Below are positions 2,598 through 49,600 of a stretch of 58,872 bases of DNA, one piece after another. Made by a program: the position numbers and the translations under genes. The DNA is from a virus. Numbering within the stretch: position 1 is the stretch's first letter; every line of letters starts with the position of its first letter. The stretch is taken from IMG/VR virus record IMGVR_UViG_3300032896_000005, positions 1 through 58,872 of that record; one strand, 5' to 3'. The notes below the pieces were generated by a model. That model saw only the letters and a program-made list of their open reading frames with translations, was not told the origin of the DNA and did no database searches.

Positions 2598-2751
2598 CAC
2601 CCCCCCGAACCCGGGGTCGGATGAGGCTTCCGCTCTCGGCTGCAAATGCGCGGTGATGGATAACAATCACGGGAAGTACCCTCCGTTCTCCCCGAACGGC
2701 TGGTGGATCACGGAGGGGTGCCCTGTCCACGCTCCGATGGAAGGAAAGTGA
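2584..2751 (+). CDS. Conserved 55-aa Cys/His protein
   Basis: 55 residues from ATG 2584. The pattern LGCKCAVMDNNHGK ... NGWWITEGCPVHAP is one I associate with a small actinophage family (G-C-x-C-P/A-x-x-D-N-x-H-G ... C-P-x-H). Two CxC/CxxH-like half-sites suggest metal binding. The stop codon overlaps the GTG start of the dehydrogenase. Function unknown. Confidence 0.6.
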   Translation: MVNGDTPPNPGSDEASALGCKCAVMDNNHGKYPPFSPNGWWITEGCPVHAPMEGK

Positions 2752-6941: not shown

Positions 6942-9900
6942 ATGGCCCGCCCGAAGCAGCTTCCCCCCGACCATCCCAGGCATCATCTCCCGGATAAGAA
7001 CGGGTACCGCTGCCGGTGGGTTGACAAGGAAGGGGTGACGCACCTCTGCCAAGGGCAGGCTGACTGGTTCATCTGGCTTTTCATGGCAGGTCGGGGTTGC
7101 GTCGCCGGGGAGACTAGGATTTACCTTCCGATGGAGGGGCGGCATGAGCGAATTGACGTGCTTGCCCGTGCGGGGAGGCCGATCACGGTACTGTCGCTAA
7201 CGGAGGACGGGGCTCGGGCTGTTCGGACGGATGGCGCTCCGTTCGTCCGGGGAGCGGACCAGCTTTACCGGGTCAGCCTGGCTGACGGCAGCGTTATCAC
7301 TGTGACGGGTCGTCATCGCTTCCTGACCCCGCAAGGATGGCGGCGATTCGCTGACGTGCGCGTCGGACAGCTTCTAGCCGGCGGCGCTCCCGTTCCTCCG
7401 GAGGGAGGTTCCTCTTCCCTATCAGGGTTTCCCGCAGATGCGCGGCGTTGGAAGAATACAGTCGCAGATTCTCGATCCGGTTATCCGAGGTATCACCGTT
7501 ACGGTGGTCAACCACCTCAGTCGGAAGTAGATAACGACCAAGAAAATGCTCCATCACCAGACGGTGCTGACGCACATATCCAGATGATGTCGCATGCGGA
7601 TGACCGGGTGCCTTCACGAGAATGTACCCATCTTCATCTACAGAATAGCCTCCGCGCCAGAAGTAATTACGCTCCGGGCGGGCTTTCGCTTCCAGCCGTG
7701 GCAGGTCTAGCTCTACTAGACGCTGGCGAACTGTTTCCTCGTCGCAGTCTAGTATCTCAGCCATTTCACGACACGTCAGCTGCTGCGAGTGGAAATAACG
7801 CAGGCGTTCCTCGTCGAGGTAGAATCGACGGGCCTCTGACATCCGTTTCCGGGTGGCGGGAGTTTTCCGGTGACCGCGCAGTCGGACTCCGGCTCTCTGG
7901 AGGGCACGACCTACCGTCTGGTAGGAAACACCGAGCTGTTCTGCTAGATCTTTCAGATTCTCACCTGCCTGATAGCGCTCTATCAGTTCCGGGAGCAGCT
8001 CAGGAGGAACACGGGAAGACCCTGGCGACGGCATGTGCGGATGCTATCACGTGGGCGCGGGTGGCGGCTATAACTCCTGCTGGGATGGGATTGTTCTATG
8101 ACATGACAGTTCCCGGGGCGGAGAATTACGCCGCTGAGGGGCTGTGGAATCACAACTGCGGGAAAACCCTCGCCGGCGCTAACTGGATTATCGAGCAGGC
8201 CCTCACCTACCCCGGCACAAGATGGGCTGTCGTCGCGCCCACCTACGATCAGGTGCAGAACGTCTGCTTCGCCGCCGTTGACTCAGGGATACGCGCGCAG
8301 GCGCAACCCGGGGAGCTGGTTGATTACAACAAGAACAACATGCTCCTCACCATGAGCAACGGGAGTGAGATCAAGGGGTTCTCCGCTGAGAACCCGGAAC
8401 GCGTGAGAGGGTACAACCTCGCCGGCGCGTGGCTTGATGAGGTCGGCTCCTACCGGTATCGGAGTATCTGGGATGAGGTTCTCCAGCCTGCTCTCCGTAA
8501 AGGGGACCCTAAGGTCATCGTCACGACCACCCCCAGCGCTTCCCCGCTTTTGAAGGAATGGTACGAACGGTGGCTGTCCCACGCCAAGAAAGGCGAAACC
8601 TGCGATATCCACCTGACGTCGGCTGTTTTCAAGGAGAATGACACGCTCCCCCCGAAAAGGGTTGAGGATCTTGAACGGCAGTACGGCGGCACTAGGATCG
8701 GCCGTCAGGAGCTTGAGGGGGAGATGCTGGAGGACTTCGAAGGCGCTTTGTGGCGTCGGGAGTTCATCGAAGCGCACCGGGTGAAAGAATCCGGGTTCTT
8801 CCATGAGAACGGGAAACTGAAAACAGAATTGTTCTCCCGGATCGTCGTCGCGGTGGACCCGTCGATGACGTCCGGGGAACGGTCGGATGAGTCGGGGATC
8901 ATCATCGCCGGGCAGGGCACCGACAATGAGGCGTACATCATCGCTGACTGGTCCGTGAACGGCACCCCTGAGATGGTGATGGGCAGGGCCGTCGCCGCCT
9001 ACTACGAGTTCTACGCGGACTGCGTGGTGATGGAGGCGAACCAGGGCGGGGATTACCTCACGAAGGCTCTCCGCACCGCCGATCCGAACGTCCCCCCTCG
9101 TATTGTGCGGGCGTCGAAGGGGAAGCTGATCCGCGCGCAGCCGGTGTCGATGCTCGCGGAGCAGGGTCGCCTGCATCATATCGGGACGTTTCAGAAGCTG
9201 GAGGATCAGCTCTGCTTGGCGGCGGGGACGCTGATCACGGTTCCTGCCGGTAAGATCCCTATTGAGTCTGTGATCGCCGGCGAAAAAGTTTTGACGCGGA
9301 AAGGATGGCGTTCCGTCACCTCTGTTTCCTGCACAGGCGTCCGGGGAACAGTGGAAATCGAGACTGGTATCGGGAATCTCGTGTGCACTCCGGACCATCC
9401 TGTATTCGTCGAAGAAATAGGGTGGGTAGAGGCTGGTTTTCTTCGTCCGGGTGATAAACTTGTTACGTGCCTAGAAAAATTGTCTGACCTTACGTCGAGT
9501 TCAACGGCGAGAAGTATTTCCTTGAGAACACCGGATATTACCGGGCAAGTCGTTCTAGAGGAAGACGGATCTTGCACCGTGATATCTGGGAAGACGCCTA
9601 CGGGCCTATCCCTGACGGATATCACATTCACCATAAAGACCATGATAAGGGTCACAACTGGCTCTCCAATCTCGTTGCGGTCACCCCTTCTGACCATGTT
9701 CGCGCCCACGGGGTACGCGGAGCATGGGCGTTCGCTGGATAATCACAGGCATCCCTCGCCCGGGGAATCTGGTAACGTCGAAAGTCCGTCGGGCCTCTTC
9801 CTACGGGCAGGGCGTGCGCAGCGTGTGGAAATGAAATCTTCACTTACCGAGCCGATATTGCAAAGTACTGTGGTAGAAAGTGTGCGAAACAAGCGCAATA

Positions 9901-10388
9901 TCGTAGAGCCTGTCTACGATCTGACAGTTGAAGACGCACACGAGTTCTTCGCCAACGGGGTGCTTGTGCATAACTGCATGATGACGCCGGAGCAGGACCG
10001 GCTGCGTCATGATGACCGCGCCGACGCGATGATCTGGGCTGTCAGCGAGTTGCGGGGGATCACGGACGGGTCATGGTCGGAGGCGTACGGGTGGGTGTAC
10101 TGCAATTCGTGCGGGCACGGGTTCGCGCGGTTGCACCGGAAATGCCCGAAATGCGGGCATAACATTGACCCTGCGGGGGATTCTTCGTCGCGGAGCCCGG
10201 GGAGCTGGGCGTCAGCGTACATGAACTATTGCAAGAAATGCGGGAGTAATTTCAGTTTCCGGGAGAAGGAATGCCCGAATTGCAGTCCGCCGCCGGGGGC
10301 GTCCCTGGCGTTGGTGGGGCAGTACACGGGGAAGCAGAACTGGCTGACGTTCAAGCAGAACAACTGGCTGACGGGACGAAAATTCTAG
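6942..10388 (+). CDS. terL: Large terminase subunit containing two inteins
   Basis: The precursor is 1148 residues from ATG 6942; removing two inteins leaves about 541. Extein features: Walker A re-formed as AGRG-C-GKT, ATPase strand VAPTYDQVQN, Walker B WLDEVG, VTTTPSAS coupling motif, nuclease-domain VVAVDPSMTSGE and a last Asp cluster HDDRADAMIWA. The C-terminus adds two zinc-ribbon half-site pairs (YCNSCGHG, KCPKCGH; YCKKCGS, ECPNCS). No SD precedes ATG 6942, and protein-like sequence (DLPSDFDDWPDAVKK, then KKYFIDELHKKIPKPP) continues in frame upstream to about 6831 without ATG, GTG or TTG, so the true start may be a non-standard GTA at 6831. The enzyme cuts and pumps DNA into proheads. 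Confidence 0.93.
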   Translation: MARPKQLPPDHPRHHLPDKNGYRCRWVDKEGVTHLCQGQADWFIWLFMAGRGCVAGETRIYLPMEGRHERIDVLARAGRPITVLSLTEDGARAVRTDGAPFVRGADQLYRVSLADGSVITVTGRHRFLTPQGWRRFADVRVGQLLAGGAPVPPEGGSSSLSGFPADARRWKNTVADSRSGYPRYHRYGGQPPQSEVDNDQENAPSPDGADAHIQMMSHADDRVPSRECTHLHLQNSLRARSNYAPGGLSLPAVAGLALLDAGELFPRRSLVSQPFHDTSAAASGNNAGVPRRGRIDGPLTSVSGWREFSGDRAVGLRLSGGHDLPSGRKHRAVLLDLSDSHLPDSALSVPGAAQEEHGKTLATACADAITWARVAAITPAGMGLFYDMTVPGAENYAAEGLWNHNCGKTLAGANWIIEQALTYPGTRWAVVAPTYDQVQNVCFAAVDSGIRAQAQPGELVDYNKNNMLLTMSNGSEIKGFSAENPERVRGYNLAGAWLDEVGSYRYRSIWDEVLQPALRKGDPKVIVTTTPSASPLLKEWYERWLSHAKKGETCDIHLTSAVFKENDTLPPKRVEDLERQYGGTRIGRQELEGEMLEDFEGALWRREFIEAHRVKESGFFHENGKLKTELFSRIVVAVDPSMTSGERSDESGIIIAGQGTDNEAYIIADWSVNGTPEMVMGRAVAAYYEFYADCVVMEANQGGDYLTKALRTADPNVPPRIVRASKGKLIRAQPVSMLAEQGRLHHIGTFQKLEDQLCLAAGTLITVPAGKIPIESVIAGEKVLTRKGWRSVTSVSCTGVRGTVEIETGIGNLVCTPDHPVFVEEIGWVEAGFLRPGDKLVTCLEKLSDLTSSSTARSISLRTPDITGQVVLEEDGSCTVISGKTPTGLSLTDITFTIKTMIRVTTGSPISLRSPLLTMFAPTGYAEHGRSLDNHRHPSPGESGNVESPSGLFLRAGRAQRVEMKSSLTEPILQSTVVESVRNKRNIVEPVYDLTVEDAHEFFANGVLVHNCMMTPEQDRLRHDDRADAMIWAVSELRGITDGSWSEAYGWVYCNSCGHGFARLHRKCPKCGHNIDPAGDSSSRSPGSWASAYMNYCKKCGSNFSFREKECPNCSPPPGASLALVGQYTGKQNWLTFKQNNWLTGRKF
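7098..8156 (+). other. Intein 1, in the terminase Walker A motif
   Basis: 353 codons between GRG and CGKT. N-terminal splicing block A: CVAGETRIYL (Cys1 at 7098). Block B: VITVTGRHRFLT with the Thr-x-x-His pair. C-terminal blocks F and G: FYDMTVPGAENYAAEG and LWNHN, ending in His-Asn before Cys+1. All residues needed for protein splicing are visible. The central part (about 7390-8060) reads as low-complexity sequence in the intein frame because it is the complement of an HNH endonuclease gene on the other strand. Confidence 0.92.
7297..8034 (-). CDS. HNH homing endonuclease encoded antisense inside intein 1
   Basis: 245 residues, entirely within intein 1 but on the opposite strand. Domains in order: helix-turn-helix 1 (ENLKDLAEQLGVSYQTVGRA, about 25-50), helix-turn-helix 2 (TCREMAEILDCDEETVRQRL, about 80-110), a strand region with NYFWRGGYSVDEDGYI, then the HNH core GYVRQHRLVMEHFLGR, VVDHRNGDTSDNRIENLRL (about 140-200) and a basic C-terminus. 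The core is of the HNH_3 type common in phage homing enzymes. The ATG at 8034 has no obvious SD. The gene is intact, so the nuclease could be made independently of the spliced terminase. Confidence 0.88.
   Translation of the reverse strand: MPSPGSSRVPPELLPELIERYQAGENLKDLAEQLGVSYQTVGRALQRAGVRLRGHRKTPATRKRMSEARRFYLDEERLRYFHSQQLTCREMAEILDCDEETVRQRLVELDLPRLEAKARPERNYFWRGGYSVDEDGYILVKAPGHPHATSSGYVRQHRLVMEHFLGRYLLPTEVVDHRNGDTSDNRIENLRLYSSNAAHLRETLIGKRNLPPEERERRRLEAVRRARQRIAAILAGSGSDDDPSQ
9213..9974 (+). other. Intein 2, in the terminase nuclease domain
   Basis: 254 codons between LEDQL and CMMTPEQDRL. Block A: CLAAGTLITVPAGKIPIESV. Block B: NLVCTPDHPVF with Thr-x-x-His. Block F/G: EPVYDLTVEDAHEFFANG and VLVHN before Cys+1. 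A splicing-competent Hint domain is apparent. It sits where the terminase sequence would otherwise read LEDQLCMMTP, just before the last metal-binding Asp region. The insert between blocks B and F (about 9480-9800) is not a recognisable endonuclease in the intein frame; an HNH domain lies in another frame there. Confidence 0.9.
9467..9742 (+). pseudogene. HNH endonuclease overprinted in another frame of intein 2, with in-frame TGA
   Basis: One base out of the intein frame, positions 9488-9742 encode a typical small phage HNH enzyme: VEFNGEKYF, TGYYRASRSRGRRILHRDIW, YGPIPDGYHIHHKDHDKGHN, then WLSNLVAVTPSDHVRAHG and a TAA stop at 9740. A fitting start exists at GTG 9467 (Met-Pro-Arg-Lys-Ile-Val), but codon 7 is TGA (9485-9487). 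No ATG or GTG occurs downstream before the core; a TTG falls just before LHRDIW. Either the nuclease is dead by one nonsense change, the TGA is read through, or a truncated form is made. Confidence 0.8.
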
Positions 10389-24638: not shown

Positions 24639-24668
24639 TACGCTCCTATTTTTTTGATTGGAGGCTGT

Positions 24669-26561
24669 GTGGCGGATATTCTATCTGCTGAAGAGGCTGC
24701 ACCCCAGATGGGGAATGCTGGTCTCGGTGGTGTCCAGGCAGCCAACGCTGCGACCGCTCGCCGGTCGTCTTATGAGGGTATGTTCACCAGTAAGGCGAAG
24801 ACTCTCGTTAAGGGCGCTGGGCATGTTTCGAATGGCGGTGTCCCGCTGAATGATGTTGATCATTCTGGTCAGATTTTGACGAAGGCGCATCAGGCGATCT
24901 TGAATACCCGCACTTCGACGGTGCAGGGTACGTGGGACACTGAGAATGTTGTTAACGGGATCGCGCCGGAGTTCTGGGCGCAGCGTGGTGCGCCGTTGAA
25001 GTCGCAGGCGATCACGGACGCTAACATCCGTAAGAGCTTCACCGCCGGCAACCTCGGGTATTCCGGCGTCCCGTACGGTCTTGTTCCCTATGATCTTCTG
25101 GCCCCGTCCCGGCTGATCTACCCGGTTTACACTCTTTTCCGTAATAAGTTCCCTCGTCCTGCGGGTCAGGGCGCTGCGCGTGAAGTTCGTGGTCTGCTGG
25201 GTATCAGCGGGTCTCAGACTGGCGGGCAGGGGATTCTGGACATTTCCACGACTGAGCTGGTTGGTTCTAACAAGAACTTCACCGCTCAGGGGAACTGGCC
25301 GTTGAACATCCCCCAGTCGGGAAGCCAGACTGAGTACAAGCTGACCGTCCCTTACCGGTTCTTCGGGTTGAGTGAGTCTCTCACCTGGTTGGCTCAGTTT
25401 GAGTCGCAGGGGTTCGAGGATATTTCCGCTCTGGCTAATCTTGTGCTTTTGCAGGAGATGATGCTGGGTGAGGAGTACCAGATGATCGCGGGTTCCTCGC
25501 AGAACCTCGCCGCTCCCGCCGCTCCCACTCTGACTGCCCGTACTGCGGGCGCTAACGAAACCGCTTTGACCGGGTACACCAGCTCCGTCGCCGTTAAGGT
25601 GACCGCGTTGAACTACTTCGGGGAAAGCCTCGTCAGCGCGGCCAGTTCTAACACGACTGTCTCTGCGGGGCAGGTTGTCGACGTTACGATTTCCCCGGTT
25701 GCGGGTGCGCAGCAGTACAACTTTTACGTTCAGAACAACAACACCGGCAGCTACTACCTTCAGGCGGGGACTTCCGTTCAGGCCGGGGTTTCCTATGCGG
25801 GTAACCAGACAGCGAACAGCGTCGGCGGTCTGCGGTTCACTCTTCAGGGTGCAATCGCCCTCTCGACGAACAGCGTCGCCGCTCCGACCGTTGACTCCGG
25901 CACCGGCGGGAGCAACCGTATGGAAGGTCTCATCCCGACCCTGACCGGTCTTTCCGCGACCGGCTCCGGCCCTTACAGCAATGTCGGGTTCGAGTCGAGC
26001 AACGTGTGGAAGGGCGGGTACGTCAACCAGTCCGTTGGGACTCACCTGTCCACTAACGCTATCTTCACCGCGTTGGACGCCCTGTGGGAGAACAACGGGA
26101 TGAACAACGTTTCCCCGGGTGTGTACAAGGCTGACCCGTCCGAGATCGTCGCTGACGGTGGCGATTTGATGCGGCTGGCTAACGACATGCTTTTGCAGGG
26201 GAACGCTCTTAACTATCTGCTTAACATCAGCCAGGACCAGATCTCTGGTATTAGGGCTGGCGCTGCGGTTGCTGAGTTCGTGAACCCGGTGACCCGCAGC
26301 ACGGTTAAGCTGACTGTCCACCCGTGGTTGTCTCAGGGCACCGCTTTGCTGATGAGCTACCAGCTCCCGCAGACGTGGAGTCATGTTGACAATGCGTGGG
26401 AAATGACCGTCGTGCAGGATTACGTCAGTGTCGCATGGCCGGTTATTGACGCCACCTTCCGCTATTCCATCTTTTTGCTCGGCACTCTCATCGCGCACGC
26501 TCCGTTCTACTCGGGGATTCTGCAGGGTCTTCAGGTATCGGACGTGACCCCATATTCTTAG
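24669..26561 (+). CDS. Major capsid protein with inserted beta domain
   Basis: 630 residues from GTG 24669, behind a T-rich stretch and GATTGGAGG. N-terminal helices (AATARRSSYEGMF), FLRN-like LFRNKFPRP, a long E-loop/P-domain region with FESQGFEDISALANLVLLQE, and a C-terminal DLMRLANDMLLQGNALNY ... HPWLSQGTALLMSYQ are consistent with an HK97-fold capsid protein of the large actinophage type. Between about 280 and 390 sits an extra fibronectin/Ig-like stretch (APAAPTLTARTAG, VKVTALNYFGESLVSAAS, AQQYNFYVQNNNTGSYYL) that could project from the capsid surface. Assignment rests on position after the protease and size. Confidence 0.85.
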   Translation: MADILSAEEAAPQMGNAGLGGVQAANAATARRSSYEGMFTSKAKTLVKGAGHVSNGGVPLNDVDHSGQILTKAHQAILNTRTSTVQGTWDTENVVNGIAPEFWAQRGAPLKSQAITDANIRKSFTAGNLGYSGVPYGLVPYDLLAPSRLIYPVYTLFRNKFPRPAGQGAAREVRGLLGISGSQTGGQGILDISTTELVGSNKNFTAQGNWPLNIPQSGSQTEYKLTVPYRFFGLSESLTWLAQFESQGFEDISALANLVLLQEMMLGEEYQMIAGSSQNLAAPAAPTLTARTAGANETALTGYTSSVAVKVTALNYFGESLVSAASSNTTVSAGQVVDVTISPVAGAQQYNFYVQNNNTGSYYLQAGTSVQAGVSYAGNQTANSVGGLRFTLQGAIALSTNSVAAPTVDSGTGGSNRMEGLIPTLTGLSATGSGPYSNVGFESSNVWKGGYVNQSVGTHLSTNAIFTALDALWENNGMNNVSPGVYKADPSEIVADGGDLMRLANDMLLQGNALNYLLNISQDQISGIRAGAAVAEFVNPVTRSTVKLTVHPWLSQGTALLMSYQLPQTWSHVDNAWEMTVVQDYVSVAWPVIDATFRYSIFLLGTLIAHAPFYSGILQGLQVSDVTPYS

Positions 26562-27775: not shown

Positions 27776-28291
27776 GTGCCGAGTTTGGGAGCCGGTGTTG
27801 ACCAGCATGTCAACACCTCGCCGACCCCCACATGGGTGTTCACGCCCAATCCGGTCGGCGGTGCGTCTGTCAGATTGTACAATGAGGGGTCGCAGGTCGT
27901 TTATATCGGGGGCGCTAACGTGTCCCCGTATAACGGGGTGCCTCTTTACCCGGGGTGTCGTCCTGTTGAGTTCCAGAATGCGAACGGGACTATTTACACC
28001 TGTTCTAATGTGACGGGGCTTACCAGCGTCGCGACGTTGAGCGGGGCGTTGAACGCCGGGGTTACCGCTTTCACCACGTCTAGCTCCATCGCGACTATCA
28101 CGGCGGGGACGACGGTTGTCCTCGGCGGGACGAGCGGCGGTGAGGTTGTCTCGGTGACTGCCACCGGCGGCGCTACGACTACCACGTTCACTATCTCGAC
28201 GTCCACACTTTATGATCATAAGAATGCTGCTGTCGTGTATACGGCGTCGAGCACCCCGGGGCAGCTGCGGGTTACTGCTGGCGTCGTTTAA
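27776..28291 (+). CDS. Beta-rich structural protein
   Basis: 171 residues from GTG 27776. The first 85 residues resemble the preceding protein in style (GGASVRLYNEGSQVVYIGGA, NVSPYNGVPLYPG). The rest is a Thr/Gly-rich beta segment (SIATITAGTTVVLGGTSGGE, ATTTTFTISTSTLYDHKN) like those found in head and tail fibre proteins. Probably a capsid decoration protein; not proven. Confidence 0.55.
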   Translation: MPSLGAGVDQHVNTSPTPTWVFTPNPVGGASVRLYNEGSQVVYIGGANVSPYNGVPLYPGCRPVEFQNANGTIYTCSNVTGLTSVATLSGALNAGVTAFTTSSSIATITAGTTVVLGGTSGGEVVSVTATGGATTTTFTISTSTLYDHKNAAVVYTASSTPGQLRVTAGVV

Positions 28292-28313
28292 TTCTGCTAG
28301 GATTGTATGCATC

Positions 28314-29327
28314 GTGAAAATCTTTGTTACAGGCGTAGCGGGGTTCCTCGGCGCGCATATCGCCCGTGAGGGGATAGCACGCGGCTGGGTGGTCGCGGGT
28401 GTTGACTCTATGCTCGGGGGGGACGCTTCAAATGTCCCCCCCGAGGTTCACTGGCGTATCGCGGATTGCAATGACACGGAGAATTATGATTATCTTCTCC
28501 GGGATGTTGATGTGGTTTATCATTGCGCGGCGGCTCCTTATGAGGGACTGTCGGTTTTTTCTCCTCAGATGGTGTTCTCGAATACTTTGATGAGCACCGT
28601 CGCGTTGCTGCGCGCTGCGATCAACGCTAAAGTCAAACGGTTCGTTTTCTGTTCGTCGATGTCGCGGTACGGTGATCAGCAGGCTCCGTTCACTGAGGAT
28701 ATGCCGGCGAAGCCGGTGGATCCGTATGCTATCGCGAAGGTCGCGTCGGAGAACGTCACCCGGAATCTCTGTGAACTCCACGGGATGGAGTGGATCATCG
28801 TGATTCCGCATAACATTTACGGTCCAGGTCAAAGATATTATGATCCGTATCGTAATGTTGCGGGGATCATGATTAATCGTGTTCTGCTTGGGAAGCCCCC
28901 GATTGTTTACGGGACGGGCCAGCAGGTTCGGTCATTGTCATATATCGATGATGTGACAGGCCCGTTGCTTCAGCTTGCTACGGCTGATGTGGCGGGCGAG
29001 ATTTTCAATTTGGGGCCTGACTCGGAAGCTGAGGAGACCACGATCGTCAATCTCGCGCATCGGGTCAGATCGATTCTTGGGTGCGGGAGGGGGGAGTTGG
29101 AGCCGTTGTTCTTCCCGCCTCGCCCCGCTGAGGTGTTCGAGGCGCATTGCTCTGCGGTTAAGGCCCGTAAGGTTCTGGGGTATGAGCCGACGTGGACGTT
29201 GGACGCCGGGTTGGCTGCTTATGTGAATTGGGTTAAGCTCAGGGGCGCTCGCCCGTTCGAGTATCATCTCCCGCTTGAGATCATCACTGATAAGACCCCG
29301 AGAACGTGGTCAGAGAGACTTATGTGA
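28314..29327 (+). CDS. SDR-family nucleotide-sugar epimerase/decarboxylase
   Basis: 337 residues from GTG 28314. Extended-SDR hallmarks: VTGVAGFLGAHI (GxxGxxG), VVYHCAAAP, FVFCSSMSRYG and the catalytic Tyr-x-x-x-Lys in DPYAIAKVASENV, then NIYGPGQ and IDDVTGPLLQLA. Such enzymes act on UDP- or dTDP-sugars with bound NAD+. Given the UDP-glucose dehydrogenase at 2.7 kb and the mutase-like gene at 30.5 kb, UDP-glucuronate 4-epimerase or decarboxylase activity is attractive, but the motif alone does not fix the substrate. First of five tightly linked sugar genes. Confidence 0.85.
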   Translation: MKIFVTGVAGFLGAHIAREGIARGWVVAGVDSMLGGDASNVPPEVHWRIADCNDTENYDYLLRDVDVVYHCAAAPYEGLSVFSPQMVFSNTLMSTVALLRAAINAKVKRFVFCSSMSRYGDQQAPFTEDMPAKPVDPYAIAKVASENVTRNLCELHGMEWIIVIPHNIYGPGQRYYDPYRNVAGIMINRVLLGKPPIVYGTGQQVRSLSYIDDVTGPLLQLATADVAGEIFNLGPDSEAEETTIVNLAHRVRSILGCGRGELEPLFFPPRPAEVFEAHCSAVKARKVLGYEPTWTLDAGLAAYVNWVKLRGARPFEYHLPLEIITDKTPRTWSERLM

Positions 29328-29904: not shown

Positions 29905-30529
29905 GCTGGTGTCGGTGGTGACGGCGACGTGGGGGCGTCCTAACGCGCTGCTGAATCATTGCATCCCGAGTGTTTTGCGGCAGTCGCACCGGCCGGTTGA
30001 GCATCTTATCGTGACGGACGGGTTTGACCCGGATTTGAGGGATGTGCTGATCGCGACGGGGTACACCGCTGACGGCACGGAAACGGCGGATGACGGGATC
30101 TATCGGCGGCTGGTGATGCTGGGGCGGAACTGGACCAGTAAAATCAGTGATCCTGGTATCGGGAGCGTCCCCCGGGCGGTCGGCGCTTGGATGGCGGCGG
30201 GGGAGTTCATCTGCTATTTCGATGATGATAATGATTTCCGCGCGGATCATATCGAGAAGCTTCTCGGGGTGATCCGTAATCAGGGTGTGGATATCGCGTT
30301 GTGCCCGTGGGCGGATCATCCGAACCCGGCTTCGTGCGTCGCTGACACGAACACTTTCCTGCACCGGGCGGATGTCCTGAAGTATGGGACGTGGCCGTTG
30401 TCGCCGTATAACGCGGATTACTGCCTGGTGCGGTCGTGGACTGATGATCATCATGTCCCGTGGGGTTTCCATGAGGAGCAGACGGTGGTTTTGAACCGTT
30501 TGAACGGCGGGAGGGGGGCTCGGGAATGA
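29897..30529 (+). CDS. Family 2-like glycosyltransferase
   Basis: 210 residues from ATG 29897, overlapping the previous gene. Begins SELVSVVTATWGRPNALLNH, followed by VLRQSHRPVEHLIVTDGFD and the acidic metal-binding cluster ICYFDDDNDFRADHIEKL; a further WGFHEEQTVVLNRL lies near the end. This is the GT-A fold of inverting GT2 enzymes. It is shorter than many and may have no membrane attachment. Likely transfers a sugar to a virion protein or to another sugar. Confidence 0.8.
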   Translation: MSELVSVVTATWGRPNALLNHCIPSVLRQSHRPVEHLIVTDGFDPDLRDVLIATGYTADGTETADDGIYRRLVMLGRNWTSKISDPGIGSVPRAVGAWMAAGEFICYFDDDNDFRADHIEKLLGVIRNQGVDIALCPWADHPNPASCVADTNTFLHRADVLKYGTWPLSPYNADYCLVRSWTDDHHVPWGFHEEQTVVLNRLNGGRGARE

Positions 30530-31530
30530 TCACGGTTGTCGTCCCGACGATCCGTGAGGACTGCATCAAACGGTGGCTCACGGAATGGGAAGAAGACCTT
30601 CACGACACCCGCGTCATCATCGTGGAGGACAACCCGACGAAGACGTTCCAGATTTCAGGGGTTGAGCATTACGCGTGGGAGGACATCGACAGGGACCTCA
30701 GGGGGGATTCCTGGGTGATCCCGAGGAGAAGCTCCGCGTGCCGCTCGTACGGGTTCCTGAAGGCCCTGGAAGGCCCTTGTGAGGCGATCTGGACGCTTGA
30801 CGACGACTGCTACCCGGAAACCGGCGTTCGAGGGCGGTACCTGGGCGCTTACACGGCCCAGCTGGGTTACAGCACCCCGGATGACCGGTGGTTCAACACG
30901 ATCCATCACAGCGGCCTGCATCCGAGGGGGTACCCGTACGGGATCCGGGGGCAGGTTAAGCCGGTGATGGTTCATCATGGGCTGTGGTCGAACATCCCTG
31001 ACCTTGACGGGGTGACGCAGCTCGCCAACCCTGATTTCCGGCTCCCCCCGACGACAGCCCCTGAGGTTGTCCCCTATGGGAAGTTCCTTCCGTTCTGCAT
31101 CATGAACGTCGGGTTCCGGAGGGAATTCACCCCCGCCTTGTACATGCTCCTGATGGGGAAGGATAAGGGTCTGGTCCCGTGGGGGTTCGACCGGTTCGAT
31201 GATATCTGGGCGGGGTTGTTCGTGAAGAAAATCGCGGATCACCTCGGGATGACGGTGACTTCCGGGTATCCGGGTATTCATCATTCGAAGGCGAGCGACC
31301 CGCATCGGAACGTTGAATTGGAAGCTGCGGGGATGAGCGCGCATGAGGGGTTCTGGGAGTACATTTCCGGGGTGCGGCTGACGGGTGACAGTGTGAGTGA
31401 ATGCTATGCTGAGCTTGCGCACGCGGTTTGGGGATCGCCTGTCCCCCCGCCTGCGGGGCGTAGTGATTACTGGTTTAAATTGAGTGATGCCATGCGTATT
31501 TGGAATCGTCTTGTCAAGGAACGCCTGTGA
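30526..31530 (+). CDS. Reversibly glycosylated polypeptide / UDP-arabinopyranose mutase-like protein
   Basis: 334 residues from ATG 30526 (ATGA overlap). The sequence follows the RGP (GT75) pattern: VVVPTIREDCIKRWL, PRRSSACRSYGFLKAL, AIWTLDDDCYPE (DxD), FNTIHHSGLHPRGYPYGIRG, VMVHHGLWSNIPDLDGVTQL and LPFCIMNVGFRREFTPALY. Plant members interconvert UDP-arabinopyranose and UDP-arabinofuranose and are reversibly glycosylated on an Arg. The Arg-containing SACRSYG segment is present. This suggests an arabinofuranose-type donor is made, but a plain transferase is possible. Confidence 0.8.
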   Translation: MITVVVPTIREDCIKRWLTEWEEDLHDTRVIIVEDNPTKTFQISGVEHYAWEDIDRDLRGDSWVIPRRSSACRSYGFLKALEGPCEAIWTLDDDCYPETGVRGRYLGAYTAQLGYSTPDDRWFNTIHHSGLHPRGYPYGIRGQVKPVMVHHGLWSNIPDLDGVTQLANPDFRLPPTTAPEVVPYGKFLPFCIMNVGFRREFTPALYMLLMGKDKGLVPWGFDRFDDIWAGLFVKKIADHLGMTVTSGYPGIHHSKASDPHRNVELEAAGMSAHEGFWEYISGVRLTGDSVSECYAELAHAVWGSPVPPPAGRSDYWFKLSDAMRIWNRLVKERL

Positions 31531-32228
31531 ATATGATCGTCATTGTCCCTACCAGGTCCCGTCCGGAGCAGTGCGCCCGGCTTATCAAATCGTTCGAGGA
31601 GACGACGGACACCGCGAGTTTGCTGTTCGTCATCGACGGGGATGATGAATCGTATGAGGGGTTCGACTGGCATGGGCATCGTTGCGCGGAGCTGAACCCG
31701 CGTGGGTCATTGACGCAGAAGCTGAACAACACGGTGAAGAACATCATTGATGATTATGATGAGATAATGTGGCAGGGTGATGATAACGAGTTCATCACCC
31801 CTCATTGGGATACGAGGCTTCTCGAAGCCCGGGAGGAATGGGGTTCCGGGTGGTTGTACCCGAATAACGGGCGACGTTCGGATGTCCCGGAGTCCTGGAC
31901 GGTCAGCAGTGACGTTGTGGAGGCTGTCGGCTGGTACGCGAACCCTGTCCTCGGGCATTATTACATTGATAACTCGGTGGCGGAGATCGGGAAGAGAGCC
32001 GGGTTGATCCGGTGGGTTCCTGATGTGCAGATCAGGCATCATCATTACTCGGTGGACCCGGACGCGGAATATGATGATTTGTACCGGGAGACGGAGAAAC
32101 GTTTCGGGGGGTCTGATCTGCAGATTTATCAGCAGTGGCAGAAGTCGCCGCAGGTGACCGGGATTGTGTCGTCGCTGCGCCGGAAGTTCAACCCCGATGT
32201 GAACTGGATCCTTTCCCGGGTAAGATGA
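31527..32228 (+). CDS. Glycosyltransferase-like protein (GT-A fold)
   Basis: 233 residues from GTG 31527, overlapping the previous stop; ATG 31533 is an alternative. Features: MIVIVPTRSRPEQCARLIKS, LLFVIDGDDESYEGF, LTQKLNNTV and the DxD-like IMWQGDDNEF, then DVVEAVGWYANPVLGHYYID, a typical GT2 acceptor-side motif, and HHHYSVDPDAEYDDLY. Last of the contiguous sugar genes. Substrate unknown. Confidence 0.75.
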   Translation: MNMIVIVPTRSRPEQCARLIKSFEETTDTASLLFVIDGDDESYEGFDWHGHRCAELNPRGSLTQKLNNTVKNIIDDYDEIMWQGDDNEFITPHWDTRLLEAREEWGSGWLYPNNGRRSDVPESWTVSSDVVEAVGWYANPVLGHYYIDNSVAEIGKRAGLIRWVPDVQIRHHHYSVDPDAEYDDLYRETEKRFGGSDLQIYQQWQKSPQVTGIVSSLRRKFNPDVNWILSRVR

Positions 32229-32578: not shown

Positions 32579-32926
32579 ATGCCTAGGATTAACCTGCCCC
32601 CCGGCTGCGCCGGCTTCGCAGATGGTGATAAGAAGTATTATGCTGACAAGCCGGGCGGGTTCGTGAATCTTGACGAGGTTAAGGACGCGAACGCACTGCG
32701 GAAGTTGAAGAATCAGGATTACGCCAGCGCCGGTCTTGTCGACGCCGGACCGGAGAAGCTGTTCGTTCATAAGGCCCGCAAGCCGGGTATGTGGTGTCGA
32801 CGGTGCAATCGGATTTGGCATGCCTGGGCGCGTACCTGTAATAAATGCGGCGACGAAACGATTTCCGAGCTAGAATTGGAAGCGCCACCTTTCCCGAAGG
32901 ACATACACGGGGGTATGATTCCTTGA
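32579..32926 (+). CDS. Small protein with C-terminal zinc ribbon
   Basis: 115 residues from ATG 32579 (SD GAGGTG). N-terminus INLPPGCAGFADGDKKYYAD, then LDEVKDANALRKLKNQDYAS; the C-terminal part has MWCRRCNRIWHAWARTCNKC, a CxxC-x(12)-CxxC zinc ribbon. Position near the connector genes and the N-terminal pattern resemble small head-tail region proteins of actinophages. Function unknown. Confidence 0.6.
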   Translation: MPRINLPPGCAGFADGDKKYYADKPGGFVNLDEVKDANALRKLKNQDYASAGLVDAGPEKLFVHKARKPGMWCRRCNRIWHAWARTCNKCGDETISELELEAPPFPKDIHGGMIP

Positions 32927-33126
32927 CAGAGGCCGGGGAGTTCGAGTTCGACTGCACGATCACCAAAGCGGTCAACCCGGTTTCCTATCAGGAAGTCGAG
33001 TTGACACCCCCGGTCAGGATCTCCACCTGGGAGCAATACGATCTGTTCTACGACAGGTGGGAGCGGTTCTGCCGGGATGCCGCTGACCGGGGTGTGGACC
33101 TTCGGATGGCGCGGTTTACCCTGTAA
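32923..33126 (+). CDS. Small hypothetical protein
   Basis: 67 residues from TTG 32923, overlapping the previous stop (TTGA); the frame is open from ATG 32845. Reads LTEAGEFEFDCTITKAVNPV, ELTPPVRISTWEQYDLFYDR and WERFCRDAADRGVDLRMARF. Acidic, soluble, two Cys. Followed at once by a strong hairpin. Function unknown. Confidence 0.5.
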   Translation: MTEAGEFEFDCTITKAVNPVSYQEVELTPPVRISTWEQYDLFYDRWERFCRDAADRGVDLRMARFTL

Positions 33127-33131
33127 ATGGG

Positions 33132-33164
33132 AGCAGCCCCGCAGTTGCGAAATGCGGGGCTGCT
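33132..33164 (+). terminator. Strong hairpin after the 33.1-kb gene
   Basis: AGCAGCCCCGCA (33132-33143) pairs perfectly with TGCGGGGCTGCT (33153-33164) over a 9-base loop. It starts 6 bases after a stop codon, so it may terminate transcription, although no U-tract follows. It is also the first of a chain of hairpins. Confidence 0.55.
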
Positions 33165-33600
33165 GCCAGGGGAAGGGATGGCTGTCATTTCCGTGGGTGT
33201 ACTCGACCCACCTGCAGCATGACAGCCGTACGGGCGGAAGGGCCGCATCCGCTCCCTCCGGCTCCGGGAGGGTCCCGACTGCTGGTGAAACCGGGACGTC
33301 TGTGACCTATGTCTATCACGGACGGGGGATTCCCGGTGTCAGCTAGTCAGGCACGTTTGACAGGGTGACCCCGCCTGGCAGGTGCGCCCTCCCCGTAAAT
33401 GACTCGGATCATGGGGCGTCCTTCCGGCGGGTCAAGCGTCCGGTGGGGACCAGGCGGGGTCGGGGGTTCCTGCCGGTGGCAGGAGATGGTGGGGTCGTCC
33501 GCACGACAGGATCATCCTCCCCCAACAACCAAGGAAAACAGGGATCATGGGATGCCCTTAACGCACATAATCAAAGCGATTTGATCGTGCGGACGACAGC
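33165..33600. other. Gene-free stretch packed with inverted repeats; candidate structured RNA
   Basis: No protein-like frame was found in either direction except a 14-codon ORF (ATG 33178, SD GGGGAAGGG). Pairs seen: GGCTGTCAT 33180-33188 with 33219-33227, with an inner GTGGGT/ACCCAC; CCCTCC 33254-33259 with 33267-33272; GTCCCG 33272-33277 with 33292-33297; GTCTGTGA 33298-33305 with TCACGGAC 33316-33323 (one G-U); TGTCA 33337-33341 with 33358-33362; GACCCCGCCTGG 33367-33378 with 33450-33461; CCTGCC 33469-33474 with 33478-33483; GTCGTCCGCACGA 33494-33506 with 33585-33597; ATCAAA-GCGA-TTTGAT 33570-33585 with a GNRA loop. Function unknown. Confidence 0.6.
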
Positions 33601-33774
33601 TTATTCAAAATCTATGCGGAGTTCCACTTCACCGTCATAACACTGCGCTGCGACGACGGTCGCGTGGATGATGGTCCGGAGAAGGTCCGTGTCGGGGGAG
33701 GTGTTCCCGAGGATCGCCTTGGCGAGGCGTAGTTCCTCGTCACGACGGATGGGGTACCGGTCGGGGGCTCCCAT
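33601..33774 (-). CDS. Leftward small protein, second gene of a two-gene cassette
   Basis: 57 residues from the ATG at 33774, overlapping the stop of the gene before it (ATGA). Reads GAPDRYPIRRDEELRLAKAI, then LLRTIIHATVVAAQCYD and an acidic end EVELRIDFE. Codon use fits the minus strand and no rightward frame here looks real. Function unknown. Confidence 0.6.
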   Translation of the reverse strand: MGAPDRYPIRRDEELRLAKAILGNTSPDTDLLRTIIHATVVAAQCYDGEVELRIDFE

Positions 33775-33962
33775 CACTGTTCGATTTCCGTCGTGTCGAA
33801 CGCGACGTACCCGTGATTCCCGTCGCTGTCGTCGTGGTCCGAGACGTAGAAGCGGGTGAGGATCTCCTCCCCGTACTCGTCGCGGATCTCATGGTTTTGC
33901 GGGAGCTGAAGAAGCTCCGCGACTGCCTCTCGAACCAGCATGTGTCCCGTCCCTTTTCCCAT
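33774..33962 (-). CDS. Leftward small acidic protein, first gene of a two-gene cassette
   Basis: 62 residues from the ATG at 33962, with SD GGAGGG and a promoter just upstream. Reads GKGTGHMLVREAVAELLQLP, EIRDEYGEEILTRFYVSDHD and ends GYVAFDTTEIEQ. Together with the next gene it forms a promoter-driven cassette opposite to the late operon. Possibly a moron or a regulator/defence pair; no homology recognised. Confidence 0.6.
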   Translation of the reverse strand: MGKGTGHMLVREAVAELLQLPQNHEIRDEYGEEILTRFYVSDHDDSDGNHGYVAFDTTEIEQ

Positions 33963-33973
33963 TTGACCCTCCG

Positions 33974-34003
33974 ACCCTACCCGTGGGCCGGTACCCCTGT
34001 CAA
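33974..34003 (-). promoter_or_regulatory. Promoter of the leftward cassette
   Basis: On the minus strand TTGACA (34003-33998), an 18-base spacer and TAGGGT (33979-33974). The SD GGAGGG (33972-33967) and ATG (33962) follow. The spacing is one base longer than ideal. Confidence 0.6.
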
Positions 34004-34043
34004 ACACATCCGGCGGGGGTTGTATTCCCAGGAAGGAAAGCAG

Positions 34044-34613
34044 ATGACATTGTACGGCCGCTCAGATCTTATGAGCGTATCAGTTCCCGTTTCGTCCGGA
34101 GGGTGCGGCAAAACCCACACTCGACCCGTCCGCAACGGAGCCCCAGCCCGTGACTTCCGTCTCGACTGCCCAGGCTGCGAGGCGTTCCTCAAAGGCGGCG
34201 GGCGGACTGTCCTGACCACTGTACCAGGAGACAAGGAGAACGGCATCCCGTCGTCGCAGAAACGGGTCGCGGACATGGACCCCTGCTGGGGCGGCAGCCC
34301 GGAGTCGGTGCCGGAGACACCTGATGAGAAGCAGTACACGAGCAGGCGGAACAAGCTCGGCGCGGAGCAGCTGGAGTGGGTTCGGGCGTTGGCGGCTGCG
34401 AAGCAGGCGGGGATCGAGATCCCTGAGATGGCGATGGAGATGCTGTCACGTCGGCTTCCGGGGGTTGTGGCGGGTGAGGTTGTCCGTAATGAGCTGAGCG
34501 TCCCGGAGTACTCCCTTGATGATCTCTCGACGGAGAAGCTGAAGCAGATGTGCAAGGAGCAGGGTTTGCCGTCGAACGGGACCCGCGCGAAGCTTATCGA
34601 GCGTTTGAGTTAA
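34044..34613 (+). CDS. SAP-domain protein with Cys/His N-terminus
   Basis: 189 residues from ATG 34044 (SD AGGAAGGAAAG; the frame is open from 33813). The N-terminal part has GGCGKTHTRPVRNGAPARDF and RLDCPGCEAFLKGG, a possible zinc site. The middle is helical (EQLEWVRALAAAKQAGIEIP). The last 35 residues, SLDDLSTEKLKQMCKEQGLP then NGTRAKLIERL, are a SAP (helix-extension-helix) DNA-binding motif. Proteins of this build occur beside actinophage connector genes. Role unknown. Confidence 0.7.
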   Translation: MTLYGRSDLMSVSVPVSSGGCGKTHTRPVRNGAPARDFRLDCPGCEAFLKGGGRTVLTTVPGDKENGIPSSQKRVADMDPCWGGSPESVPETPDEKQYTSRRNKLGAEQLEWVRALAAAKQAGIEIPEMAMEMLSRRLPGVVAGEVVRNELSVPEYSLDDLSTEKLKQMCKEQGLPSNGTRAKLIERLS

Positions 34614-39624: not shown

Positions 39625-40785
39625 ATGGCAAGGATCCTTTTTCATAGCTGCGCGCCTTGGGCTTGCTCGGGGTACGGGGTTGAGACTGCGATTTGGACGC
39701 AGGAACTTCAAAGGCTGGGGCATGAGGTTATCATCTCCACCTACTGGGGTATCCAGGGTGGCGCGACGATGTGGAACGGGATGACGATCCTCCCGGGGTA
39801 CGGCCCTAACTATTGTTCCACTTCCCTGTATCAGCATGCTAAGGCGTACAACCCGGATTTGATCATCACGTTGGGTGATGTGTGGGTGATGAACGCGGAT
39901 CTCCTGCGGGAGCTGCCGGTTGCGCATTGGCTTCCGTCTGATTGCCGGCCGATGTCTTTGGCGGACCGGGGGGTGGTTGACAGTTCGGGTGCTCAGCTGA
40001 TCGCGATGAGCGAGTTCGGGTTGGAGCGGTTCAAACGGGCTGGTTTTGATCCGGTGTATGTTCCTCATGCGATCGACACGGATGTGTTCCGGCCGTTGCC
40101 GAATCGGGGGGAGCTGCGTGAGGCGGCGGGGTTGCCGGAGGGCATGTTCGTGGTGGGGGTCAACCAGGCGAATAATGATGCGATCCGGAAGGCTTTGCCT
40201 GAGCAGATGCTGGCGTTCGCGAAGTTCGCTGAACAGCATCCTGGTGAGGTGATGCTGACGTTGCACACGGGGGTGCATCAGGAGGGCGGGCAGGATCTGG
40301 AGGCCGTCGCGGAGAACCTCGGGATTGTTGATTTGATCCGGATTGTGGATCAGTACCGGTACACGGCGGGGATGATCAGCCAGCCGGATTTGAATGAATG
40401 GTACAACGTTATTGATGTTTTGTCGCAGACGGTGTACGCGGAGGGTTTCGGGTTGCCGGTGATGGAGGCGCAGGCGGCGGGGACCCCGGTTATCACCACG
40501 GATGCGTCGTCGATGACGGAGATTAACCCTCATGGTATCCGGGTGGGGGGGCAGCCTTTCTGGAACGGGGTGCATAAGGGCTGGTGGGTTTCCCCGTCTG
40601 TGAGTGAGATCGCGGATGCTTATGAGCGGGCGTTCCAGGAGCGCGGGAATGTTGATTCCGGGAAACTCCGCAGGTTCGCTCGGGAATACTCGATTGACAG
40701 GGTTTCGGTGGAGTTCATGCAGCCGGCGGTTGAAACTCTCATCAAGAGGGTTGCGCATAAGGTGTCCAGGCCGTCGGAAGGTTAA
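39625..40785 (+). CDS. Family 4-like glycosyltransferase
   Basis: 386 residues from ATG 39625. GT-B fold: N-terminal MARILFHSCAPWACSGYGVE, DLIITLGDVWVMN, LIAMSEFGLERFKRAGF and VYVPHAIDTDVFRPLP; C-terminal domain with MFVVGVNQANNDAIRKALPE and the retaining-enzyme motif YAEGFGLPVMEAQAAGTPVI (Glu about 273 and 281). It lies between the tail chaperones and the neck-like protein, so it may glycosylate tail proteins. Full length for GT4. Confidence 0.85.
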   Translation: MARILFHSCAPWACSGYGVETAIWTQELQRLGHEVIISTYWGIQGGATMWNGMTILPGYGPNYCSTSLYQHAKAYNPDLIITLGDVWVMNADLLRELPVAHWLPSDCRPMSLADRGVVDSSGAQLIAMSEFGLERFKRAGFDPVYVPHAIDTDVFRPLPNRGELREAAGLPEGMFVVGVNQANNDAIRKALPEQMLAFAKFAEQHPGEVMLTLHTGVHQEGGQDLEAVAENLGIVDLIRIVDQYRYTAGMISQPDLNEWYNVIDVLSQTVYAEGFGLPVMEAQAAGTPVITTDASSMTEINPHGIRVGGQPFWNGVHKGWWVSPSVSEIADAYERAFQERGNVDSGKLRRFAREYSIDRVSVEFMQPAVETLIKRVAHKVSRPSEG

Positions 40786-46640: not shown

Positions 46641-49600
46641 ATGACCACGCACACCGGGGACGGCACCGCGCAGGACGGCACCGGCTCGTCGTTCACCGTC
46701 CCGGTCACCAGCAGCGCCGGGGAAACGCTGGTGGTGTGGGCGACGCAGTGGGTCACTTCCGACACGGCGATCCACCTTGAATCCATCACCGACACCGCCT
46801 CCAACACGTGGACGTACAGCACCGCGACGGCTAATCAGAACCCGCCGGCGAACGGCAGCTACGACAGCGGCGACACCCAGTACGGGTTCACCGCGATCGG
46901 GGTGTGCATCGGCGCGTCGGCTGTCACGTCCGTCACCGTCACCTTCTCCGGCTCCGGGGATTACGCTGAAGTTCAGGTGTCACGGTTCGCCAGCCTCCCC
47001 GCCGGGTCGGTGGTGCTGGGAGCCGCGTCGACGGGGACGCTAGCCCACGCGGTCACCAGCTACACCACGCCGTCGGTGACTGTCTCGTCCGGGTCGTCTG
47101 TGCTCGTGCTGGTGAACACCAGTTTCCTCAACGGGGAGTGGACGGGGGCGTCCTCCGGCTACACGATCATCAGCTACACCGATTCCCTCGGCGCTTACAA
47201 TGTGGCGGCGACAGCGGGGACTATCTCGTGCACGCTCACCGCCGGCACAGCCGAGGACGTGCCCAGTTCCGCGATCATGGTCATCGGGTCTCCCGCTGTC
47301 ACATCCACAGGCGCGGTGAGCCTTGACCTTACCTTGTCCGGGACGGGTACCGTCGCTGACCCGGTGACGTCCACGGGAAGCCTGACGTTGAACGCCGCGT
47401 TGTCCGGGTCGGGGCTTGTCGCTGACCCGGTGACGTCCACGGGGGCTGTCACCCTCGGGTTGGCGGTGAGCGGATCCGCCAGCGTGCCGGTCCTTTCGCT
47501 CAATAACCTGGTCGCCGGGTCTGTCGTCAACGATTACGGTCTTGACAGCATCCCCTACACGGTCGGGACGACGGGTCTCACCACCGCGCTGGTCGCGTAC
47601 ATCGGGTGGGATGTCGCGCAGCAGGCGTACCAGTCGTCCGGGCACGCCCCCGCTGTGAACGTGACTGATTCCGCCGGGAATCTGTGGCGGCAGATCGGGA
47701 TCAGCACTCAGGCGACCGCCTCCCGGGGCGCGGTGTGGATCGCGGATAACCCCCGGCAGGTGAGCTGGGTGTCGGTCGCGGTGACAGGGTGGGCGAATTC
47801 AACCTCTTACATCCTCGCGGAGATGGATGACGTCCCGTCGTCGATGCAGGCGGTTTCCCTTGACTTCGTAAAGACGGTCAACTCGACTGCGTTCACAACA
47901 TCCCTGTCTCTTTCAGGGACGGCTTCCACCGCTGACATCATGTTCGGCCTGGTGACGACCGGGGGGGCGGGCGGCTCGCTGACAGTCCCCACTGGGTGGA
48001 CGGGTTTGACGGCGGTCACCTCAGGGATCCCCACGGGGGCGTCCACGTACGCGATGTGGATCCCGGGGACGACGGGGACGATCCCGGTGTTCAACCCGTC
48101 ATGGGCGAACAGCGTCCCGTCTGCGGGGATCATTGTGGGGTTGAAGGAAACATCATCCGCGCCGGCGCAGACGAACCCGAATATGCCGAATGTGACGATC
48201 GAGGCGGCGTTCGGGGCGTCCCCGGGGGATTTCACCCAGTCCGTTGATTACACCTGGTCGGTGGAGGGGGTCACGTGGACGGATATTTCCTCGCGGGGGT
48301 TCGGGAAAGGCGATGATTCCAACATCACGGTGAAGCGGGGTCGTCAGTATGAGCTTTCCCAGGAGGAAACCGGGGAGATCAACGTTCTCCTTGACAATCA
48401 TGATGGTGTGTTCACTTACGGGAACGCCTTGTCGCCTTATTACCCGGATATCACCCCGAACACCCCGTTGAGGGTCACAGCATGGTGGGATGGGGTGCAG
48501 TACCCGATCGCTTTCGGGTATGTGGAACGGTGGCCGTATGAGTGGCCGGAGTTGCCGCAGTGGGGGTTCGTTAACGTCGTCGCGGTGGACGCCTACGGCC
48601 CTTTGGCGAATACCAGTTTGCCGTCGTCGGTGATCGGGGAGGTCAGGCAGGCTTTCCCTTACTCGTATTTCACGACGGAGGAGCAGTATGAGTTCACGTC
48701 GCAGTCGCTGACACCCACGGAATCCCCGATCGACGCGAACGGTTTGATCGCGGTTAACTATGCGTTCGGGAATAACCGGTACGGCGCTTACCGGGATGGT
48801 TATGATCAGCCGGTGACGACGGGGCAGGCGTTGAATTTGCTGGGTGATGAGAACACCTGCCTCGGCGCGACGACGTACGGGGGGCAGGAAATTGAGGATA
48901 ACGGCCCGGGGATGTTCTATTTTGATCCGAACATCCCGACGAATTACAATAGCGGGGCTTTCTCGGCGGAGTTCTGGTTCGTGTGGGGGAACACGAACAC
49001 GTATTCCTGCCAGTTGATGTCAGCGTTCGGCGGGCCGTCGTCTTTCACCGCTTCCGCCCCGGAGACGAACGCGACGGTCGGGGGGGTTTTGTCGGTGGGG
49101 GTGAACACGGGGCTGGAGAACGCGGGGACTGTCCTCTCCGGGTTTTACTGCAATGGGGTGGAGTTGACGGATCAGACGTTCAACCAGACGACTTTCGCGC
49201 CGCAGCATTTCGTTCTGACAACCGGGCCGGGGGGGACGACGACGTATCTGAACGGGCAGACGACGGCGACGTTCCCGGTGTTGGGGACGATCCCGCAGAT
49301 CCGCGCGGTCTGCCTCGGCCCCGCCCGGTTCTCTTATGATGTTTCCGCCCTGGTTGTTTACAATGGATATAATTATATTGCGGGGCATTTCGCGTGGTAT
49401 GACTATGCGGTGACTGCGCAGCAGGTCGCGAATCATTATGAGGCGGGCATCGCGGGGTGGGCGGGGGTTGTCGCGCCGGGCCGGTACGCGCAGGCTCTCA
49501 CGTGGGGGAATCTGGGGTTGAAACGGGGCGGGACAGCGTGGTTCGGGGCGCATGGGACGGTGGAGGGAACGTATGTTTCCGAGGCGTACCAGTATGACGG

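Follow-up and report, generated by a model that had tools for sequence, protein, structure and literature searches.

Tandem copies of an uncatalogued phage RNA with a predicted kink-turn

A cassette insertion site in the structural operon

The window analyzed here is the whole stretch of 58,872 nucleotides from a 58.9-kb IMG/VR virus record. None of the GenBank phages is similar to it at the DNA level. Two rightward genes, A (32579–32926) and B (approximately 34044–34613, with a SAP domain), enclose the region of interest. The first search with neighboring proteins returned no relatives; 77 related IMG/VR loci were gathered through a conserved 635-residue protein encoded at 24654–26561. Genes A and B adjoin in 57 of the 77. 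The distance between them runs from overlap or approximately 15 bp up to 5 kb, with 15–50 bp in many relatives, and this spread marks the site as a place where cassettes insert within the structural operon. The insertion site spans 32927–34043 in the window, and the same gap is found in loci L003–L079. The first-pass annotation had placed the stretch 33132–33600 between the late operon and a leftward cassette; it lies inside an insertion between two rightward genes and not at an operon edge. The structural operon of the window also contains sugar-nucleotide and glycosylation genes (2703–4031, 28212–29327, 30526–31530, 31500–32228 and 39625–40785), which encode UDP-glucose dehydrogenase, nucleotide-sugar epimerase, an RGP-family protein (PF03214) and glycosyltransferases.

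The A–B gap is often filled by leftward genes behind a conserved promoter, and the inserts often end in hairpins that face the rightward operon. A consensus match to a leftward sigma-70-like promoter (TTGACA-N18-TAGGGT) is located at 33974–34003 on the minus strand of the window. The pattern TTGACA-N17/18-TAnnnT occurs at the same place in L005, L007, L011 and L029, and is the predicted leftward promoter at which the insert starts in these loci and in the window. Two small minus-strand genes follow. The first is listed as an open reading frame at 33774–34007 and has no family match; the listed start overlaps the promoter, so translation probably begins at the ATG near 33941 instead. The second (33601–33777) has its stop codon 3 nucleotides before the RNA described below as copy 2.

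The region 33127–33602 (476 nucleotides) is rich in inverted repeats. Inspection of the sequence confirmed these at the positions first given, including the perfect 12-bp stem that closes the 95-nucleotide domain at 33367–33461 and the perfect 13-bp stem that closes the 104-nucleotide domain at 33494–33597. Other stems lie at 33128–33168, 33180–33227, approximately 33252–33272, 33277–33348 and approximately 33468–33484. On either strand, the predicted fold of the region is better than that of every one of its 100 dinucleotide-shuffled versions (z of −4.5 for the plus strand and −5.0 for the minus strand), as expected of the structured RNA that the first-pass annotation had proposed. Its remark that no tRNA or recognizable riboswitch is present also holds. 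ARAGORN called no tRNA in the window, no Rfam 15 family, GOLLD and ROOL included, matched the window at its gathering score, and an Rfam search of 33000–33700 with E values up to 10 gave no credible match.

The chain of about nine hairpins seen at first is made of parts that differ in conservation. The two long-stem domains are tandem copies of one unit of approximately 100 nucleotides, separated by a linker on the minus strand (33462–33493) with a small CCTGCC/GGCAGG hairpin. The remaining stems are present, but the sequences in hand held no homologues of 33277–33348, approximately 33252–33272, 33180–33227 or 33128–33168. The unit at 33277–33348 is unclassified and known from its inverted repeats; it is placed on the minus strand, with the strand uncertain. 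It holds the G–U pair (stem 33298–33323) that had been taken as a sign of selection on RNA. That pair requires the plus strand, is a single pair and lies in a part with no homologues. The hairpin at 33180–33227 has the arms GGCTGTCAT/ATGACAGCC, and the one at 33128–33168 is strong and symmetric; neither is assigned to a strand. The latter sits between the end of a rightward gene (33126) and the leftward transcript, and hairpins occur at the matching place in L005, L007 and L011. It is not followed by the U tract of a standard intrinsic terminator. Terminators of G+C-rich actinobacteria often have no U tract. This hairpin is probably a two-way terminator between convergent transcripts, and the chain outside the two conserved units (33128–33350) is probably terminator and spacer structure.

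An RNA family of seven copies in five phages

A motif around GGATCATG, located between the stem arms, is common to L011, L029 and both long-stem domains of the window. A pattern scan of IMG/VR added L092 and L100. The family rests on seven sequences from five metagenomic phages: two copies in the window, one each in L011, L029 and L092, and two in L100. L091 is a near-duplicate of L029 that gives identical matches, and the pair was counted once. The copies are approximately 90–113 nucleotides long. Covariance models R1, R2 and R3 were built in turn. R3, which was built from the same seven copies that it scores, gives them E values of 1e-9 to 3e-15, including 2.8e-15 for copy 1 of the window (33367–33461, minus strand) and 2.5e-15 for copy 2 (33494–33597, minus strand). 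The second copy of L100 (L100b) had no part in building R1 or R2 and was nevertheless found by both, with an E value of 0.006 in 1.4 Mb and one of 0.011 in the L100b record; its value is 1.2e-9 once it is included in R3. Together with the covariation described below, these matches identify the two domains of the window as tandem copies of one RNA. The family is absent from Rfam and was previously uncatalogued.

Searches of 49 whole records with R1–R3 gave no convincing copy beyond the seven. Further IMG/VR patterns and a pattern scan of genome contigs yielded no further true copies; the other matches had no outer stem or a weak score. No copy was found in 296 genomes of the class Actinomycetes or in 14 GenBank phages, two sets that had no positive control and carry little weight as negatives. 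Three look-alikes were rejected. L011:17141–17265 (stem CCTGTCCACAAGG) shares the flanking P1-UUAAA...CUG-P1′ pattern with the family, but it has no internal loop, and its GAUGAUCUCC is able to form a simple helix. L005:14412–14539 and window 33277–33348 have a similar look and no family match. The L011 and L005 elements have perfect 13-bp closing stems at the same insertion site; they are possibly other structured RNAs, outside the kink-turn family.

The carriers are not all phages of one kind. The terminase type of the window was found in record G006 (which holds L011) and not in G047 (L092), G048 (L100) or G018 (L029); of these records, G047 and G018 are short fragments, whereas G048, at 97 kb, probably belongs to another type of phage. 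The stretch had been suggested to act as a signal for packaging or replication. Most relatives lack the element at this site, its settings in L092 and L100 are different, and the 14 GenBank phages gave no copy, all of which speaks against such a signal. The terminase gene of the window (6942–10388) encodes 1148 residues, of which only residues 1–53, 406–759 and 1012–1147 match the 577-residue terminase of G006. It seems to hold two long in-frame inserts that are intein-like.

A three-way junction with a predicted kink-turn

The family alignment describes each unit as a three-way junction of a P1 stem, a short P2 hairpin and a P3 arm. P1 (8–13 bp) joins the two ends of the RNA and finishes in an invariant U·G pair, and the first junction is usually UCAA or UUAA. 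The P3 arm consists of P3a (AGG/CCU), the five-pair P3b, an internal loop and P3c, in that order. On the minus strand, copy 2 has P1 at 33597–33585/33506–33494, P2 at 33580–33576/33564–33560, P3a at 33558–33556/33510–33508, P3b at 33554–33550/33517–33513, the loop at 33549–33544/33520–33518 and P3c at 33543–33541/33523–33521. The corresponding elements of copy 1 are P1 at 33461–33450/33378–33367, P2 at 33443–33440/33427–33424, P3a at 33422–33420/33382–33380, P3b at 33418–33414/33389–33385, the loop at 33413–33408/33392–33390 and P3c at 33407–33406/33394–33393.

Covariation was assessed on alignment A6 (7 sequences, 28 pairs), which is hand-anchored with loops trimmed and padded and thereby favors the structure. 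Of its cells, 95.9% are paired, compared with 37–46% in slid controls. Double-sided compensatory changes occur in 22 of the 28 base pairs, and 54 cells carry them against a shuffle mean of 17. Pairing is conserved throughout P3a and P3b (100%), with as many as five types of pair in P3b. The family and its fold are thus legible in the alignment itself, and this strong covariation in homologues upholds the first-pass proposal. We regard it as near certain that the conserved units are structured RNA.

An earlier structure, with a local AGG..CCU hairpin and a pseudoknot to its loop, was also 96% paired. It was replaced because RNAalifold nests both helices, even on an alignment that had been fitted to a different structure, and because nesting accounts for the invariant loop. 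L029 and L100b form the nested P3 arm unaided when each is folded alone to minimum energy. Folded in the same way, the two window copies (w1 and w2), L092 and L100a depart from this structure inside P1, and the folding of L100a is no better than that of its shuffles (z of −0.9).

In every one of the seven copies, the internal loop of P3 reads CAU-GA-U opposite G-(G/U)-A. It comprises a three-nucleotide bulge, a G·A pair at 1b·1n, A·G (five copies) or A·U (two copies) at 2b·2n and U·G at 3b·3n, after which P3c begins. The loop is flanked by the covarying P3b and P3c. The outer helix of L100b is CUCC/GGAG, a compensatory change across which the loop is kept. This arrangement fits the standard k-turn definition (PMC5061560), and Kt-23 k-turns usually have U at 2n (PMC3985660). 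The P3 loop thus fits the kink-turn consensus, and we infer that it kinks. It resembles the L7Ae-binding kink-turns Kt-7 and Kt-23 in having a three-nucleotide bulge, G·A and A·G (or A·U, as in Kt-23) between two helices. Here, however, the motif is set in a new three-way-junction RNA, and both its kink and its binding of protein are predicted. The presence of a kink-turn would point to a bound protein or a tertiary contact.

The same features weigh on two other explanations of the units. Strong symmetric hairpins end the cassette between convergent genes in the window, L005, L007 and L011, and the whole chain could be a terminator or a structure that protects 3′ ends, with no sequence-specific role. 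Termination alone may account for 33128–33168 and perhaps for 33180–33350. For the two conserved units it is disfavored, and as an account of the RNA we consider it very improbable: it leaves unexplained why the internal loop is invariant, why P3b carries compensatory changes and why copies occur in L092 and amid the L100 tRNAs. A compact fold with invariant unpaired bases, placed beside tRNAs and at transcript ends, would also suit a new self-cleaving ribozyme that trims transcripts. This is quite unlikely, given that a kink-turn already accounts for the invariant loop and that no Rfam ribozyme matches. The twister-sister ribozyme has a loop of some likeness but a different topology, and was set aside.

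Strand, genomic settings and proposed role

The strand can be read from four kinds of evidence. The copies of L100 (record G048) are set within a tRNA array, with 24 tRNA genes called in 6.3 kb, and are on the tRNA strand, which corresponds to the minus-strand reading of the window. The neighboring small genes in the window, L011, L029 and L092 run the same way as the RNA. The leftward promoter points in this direction as well. Within the conserved units, 11 wobble cells favor the minus strand and 1 the opposite, and C–A mismatches become G–U pairs when read on the minus strand. A plus-strand reading goes against all four and was rejected. An idea that the element mimics the 16S 3′ end (GGAUCA, plus strand) was dropped along with it, since the RNA is assigned to the minus strand. 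The conserved units are very probably a real working RNA encoded on the minus strand of the window.

The settings of the copies differ. In the window, L011 and L029, the RNA is in the 3′ part of the leftward transcript, after the leftward genes and before the hairpins, with no convincing gene downstream. (The stretch L029:15965–16255 next to the RNA is filled by imperfect short repeats of the CCGCACC/CCTGCC type.) One L100 copy begins approximately 2 nucleotides from the end of a tRNA-Leu, and each of the two is followed immediately by a tRNA-like sequence that is absent from the ARAGORN calls; the L100 units themselves were not called as tRNAs either. In L092, 30 nucleotides separate the end of the RNA from the start codon of the leftward gene that follows. 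This last position counts against a free RNA, as it would also suit a riboswitch-like leader in which the kink-turn junction recognizes a small molecule or protein and regulates the adjacent gene. Some riboswitches are known as tandem copies. We consider such a cis-acting element rather unlikely. The copies of the window, L011 and L029 follow the leftward genes, those of L100 lie between tRNAs, and across the five phages the RNA does not lead a consistent gene set; there is no shared downstream gene and no expression platform was seen. Such mixed settings (three phages with the RNA in the 3′ part of a transcript, one with it between tRNAs and one with it ahead of a gene) point to a free RNA and away from a single common role in cis.

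A phage Y RNA that binds a phage Ro60/TROVE protein was also considered. Two of the carrier phages (G048 and G006) encode TROVE, the long end-to-end stem is like that of Y RNAs, and TROVE-bearing relatives have YrlA-like matches near the TROVE gene. TROVE/Ro60 genes above the cut-off are, however, present in 14 of the 49 related records, so their presence in two carriers is not above background, and the window fragment has none. YrlA (RF02553) is not matched in the window, nor above the 69-bit cut-off in 31 records. A tRNA-like T arm of the GGUUCGA type is absent from all seven sequences. Y RNAs keep a Ro-binding sequence, whereas the sequence of P1 varies freely. The conserved RNA shares with YrlA and other bacterial Y RNAs, partners of Ro60/TROVE, the long stem pairing its ends and a phage group with TROVE genes; it differs in having no tRNA-like module, no above-cut-off match and no fixed Ro-binding stem sequence. 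It is not a YrlA, and a Y RNA in the wider sense is unlikely. Separately, a TROVE/Ro60-like gene lies at G048:C1 approximately 47244–48896 (L251:4245–5897, plus strand), and others occur in G006, G007, G021, G023, G025, G030, G036, G039 and G040. Sub-threshold YrlA-like matches often lie 1–2.5 kb from TROVE genes, and the YrlA model also weakly matches control genomes. The TROVE genes and these nearby matches are probably phage Ro–Y RNA modules.

Small non-tRNA RNAs among phage tRNA genes have a precedent in the stable RNAs C and D, which are encoded in the tRNA cluster of T4. Those belong to another phage group; the parallel is in the type and setting of the genes. GOLLD and ROOL are phage and prophage RNAs that are often near tRNA islands (PMC12286853). 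They too are structured, carried by phages and of unknown function. They differ in their length of several hundred nucleotides, in their much larger number of helices and in forming nanocages; the new RNA is approximately 100 nucleotides long and has no Rfam match.

On balance, we favor a small, free-standing minus-strand kink-turn RNA, carried by large phages, that would be cut from a longer transcript, bound by protein and active in trans. In the window, L011 and L029, it would be transcribed within the 3′ part of the longer leftward cassette transcript; in L100, the enzymes that mature the flanking tRNAs could free it from the array. The released, presumably stable RNA would most likely work in trans during infection, where it may affect the host. 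A protein would grip the compact RNA at the kink-turn, and candidates for this partner are an L7Ae-type protein of the host or an RNA-binding protein of the phage, for example the Ro60/TROVE protein of the L011 and L100 phages. More tentatively, the copies may represent a class of trans-acting kink-turn RNAs that form an RNA–protein particle, or act as a decoy for a host RNA-binding or defense protein, and have moved from one unrelated phage to another by way of tRNA arrays and cassette insertion sites. An uncatalogued RNA family with a defined fold would thus join the few phage RNAs linked to tRNA arrays, and its predicted kink-turn, with an L7Ae-type or TROVE protein as the possible partner, would offer a concrete handle on what such RNAs do in infection.
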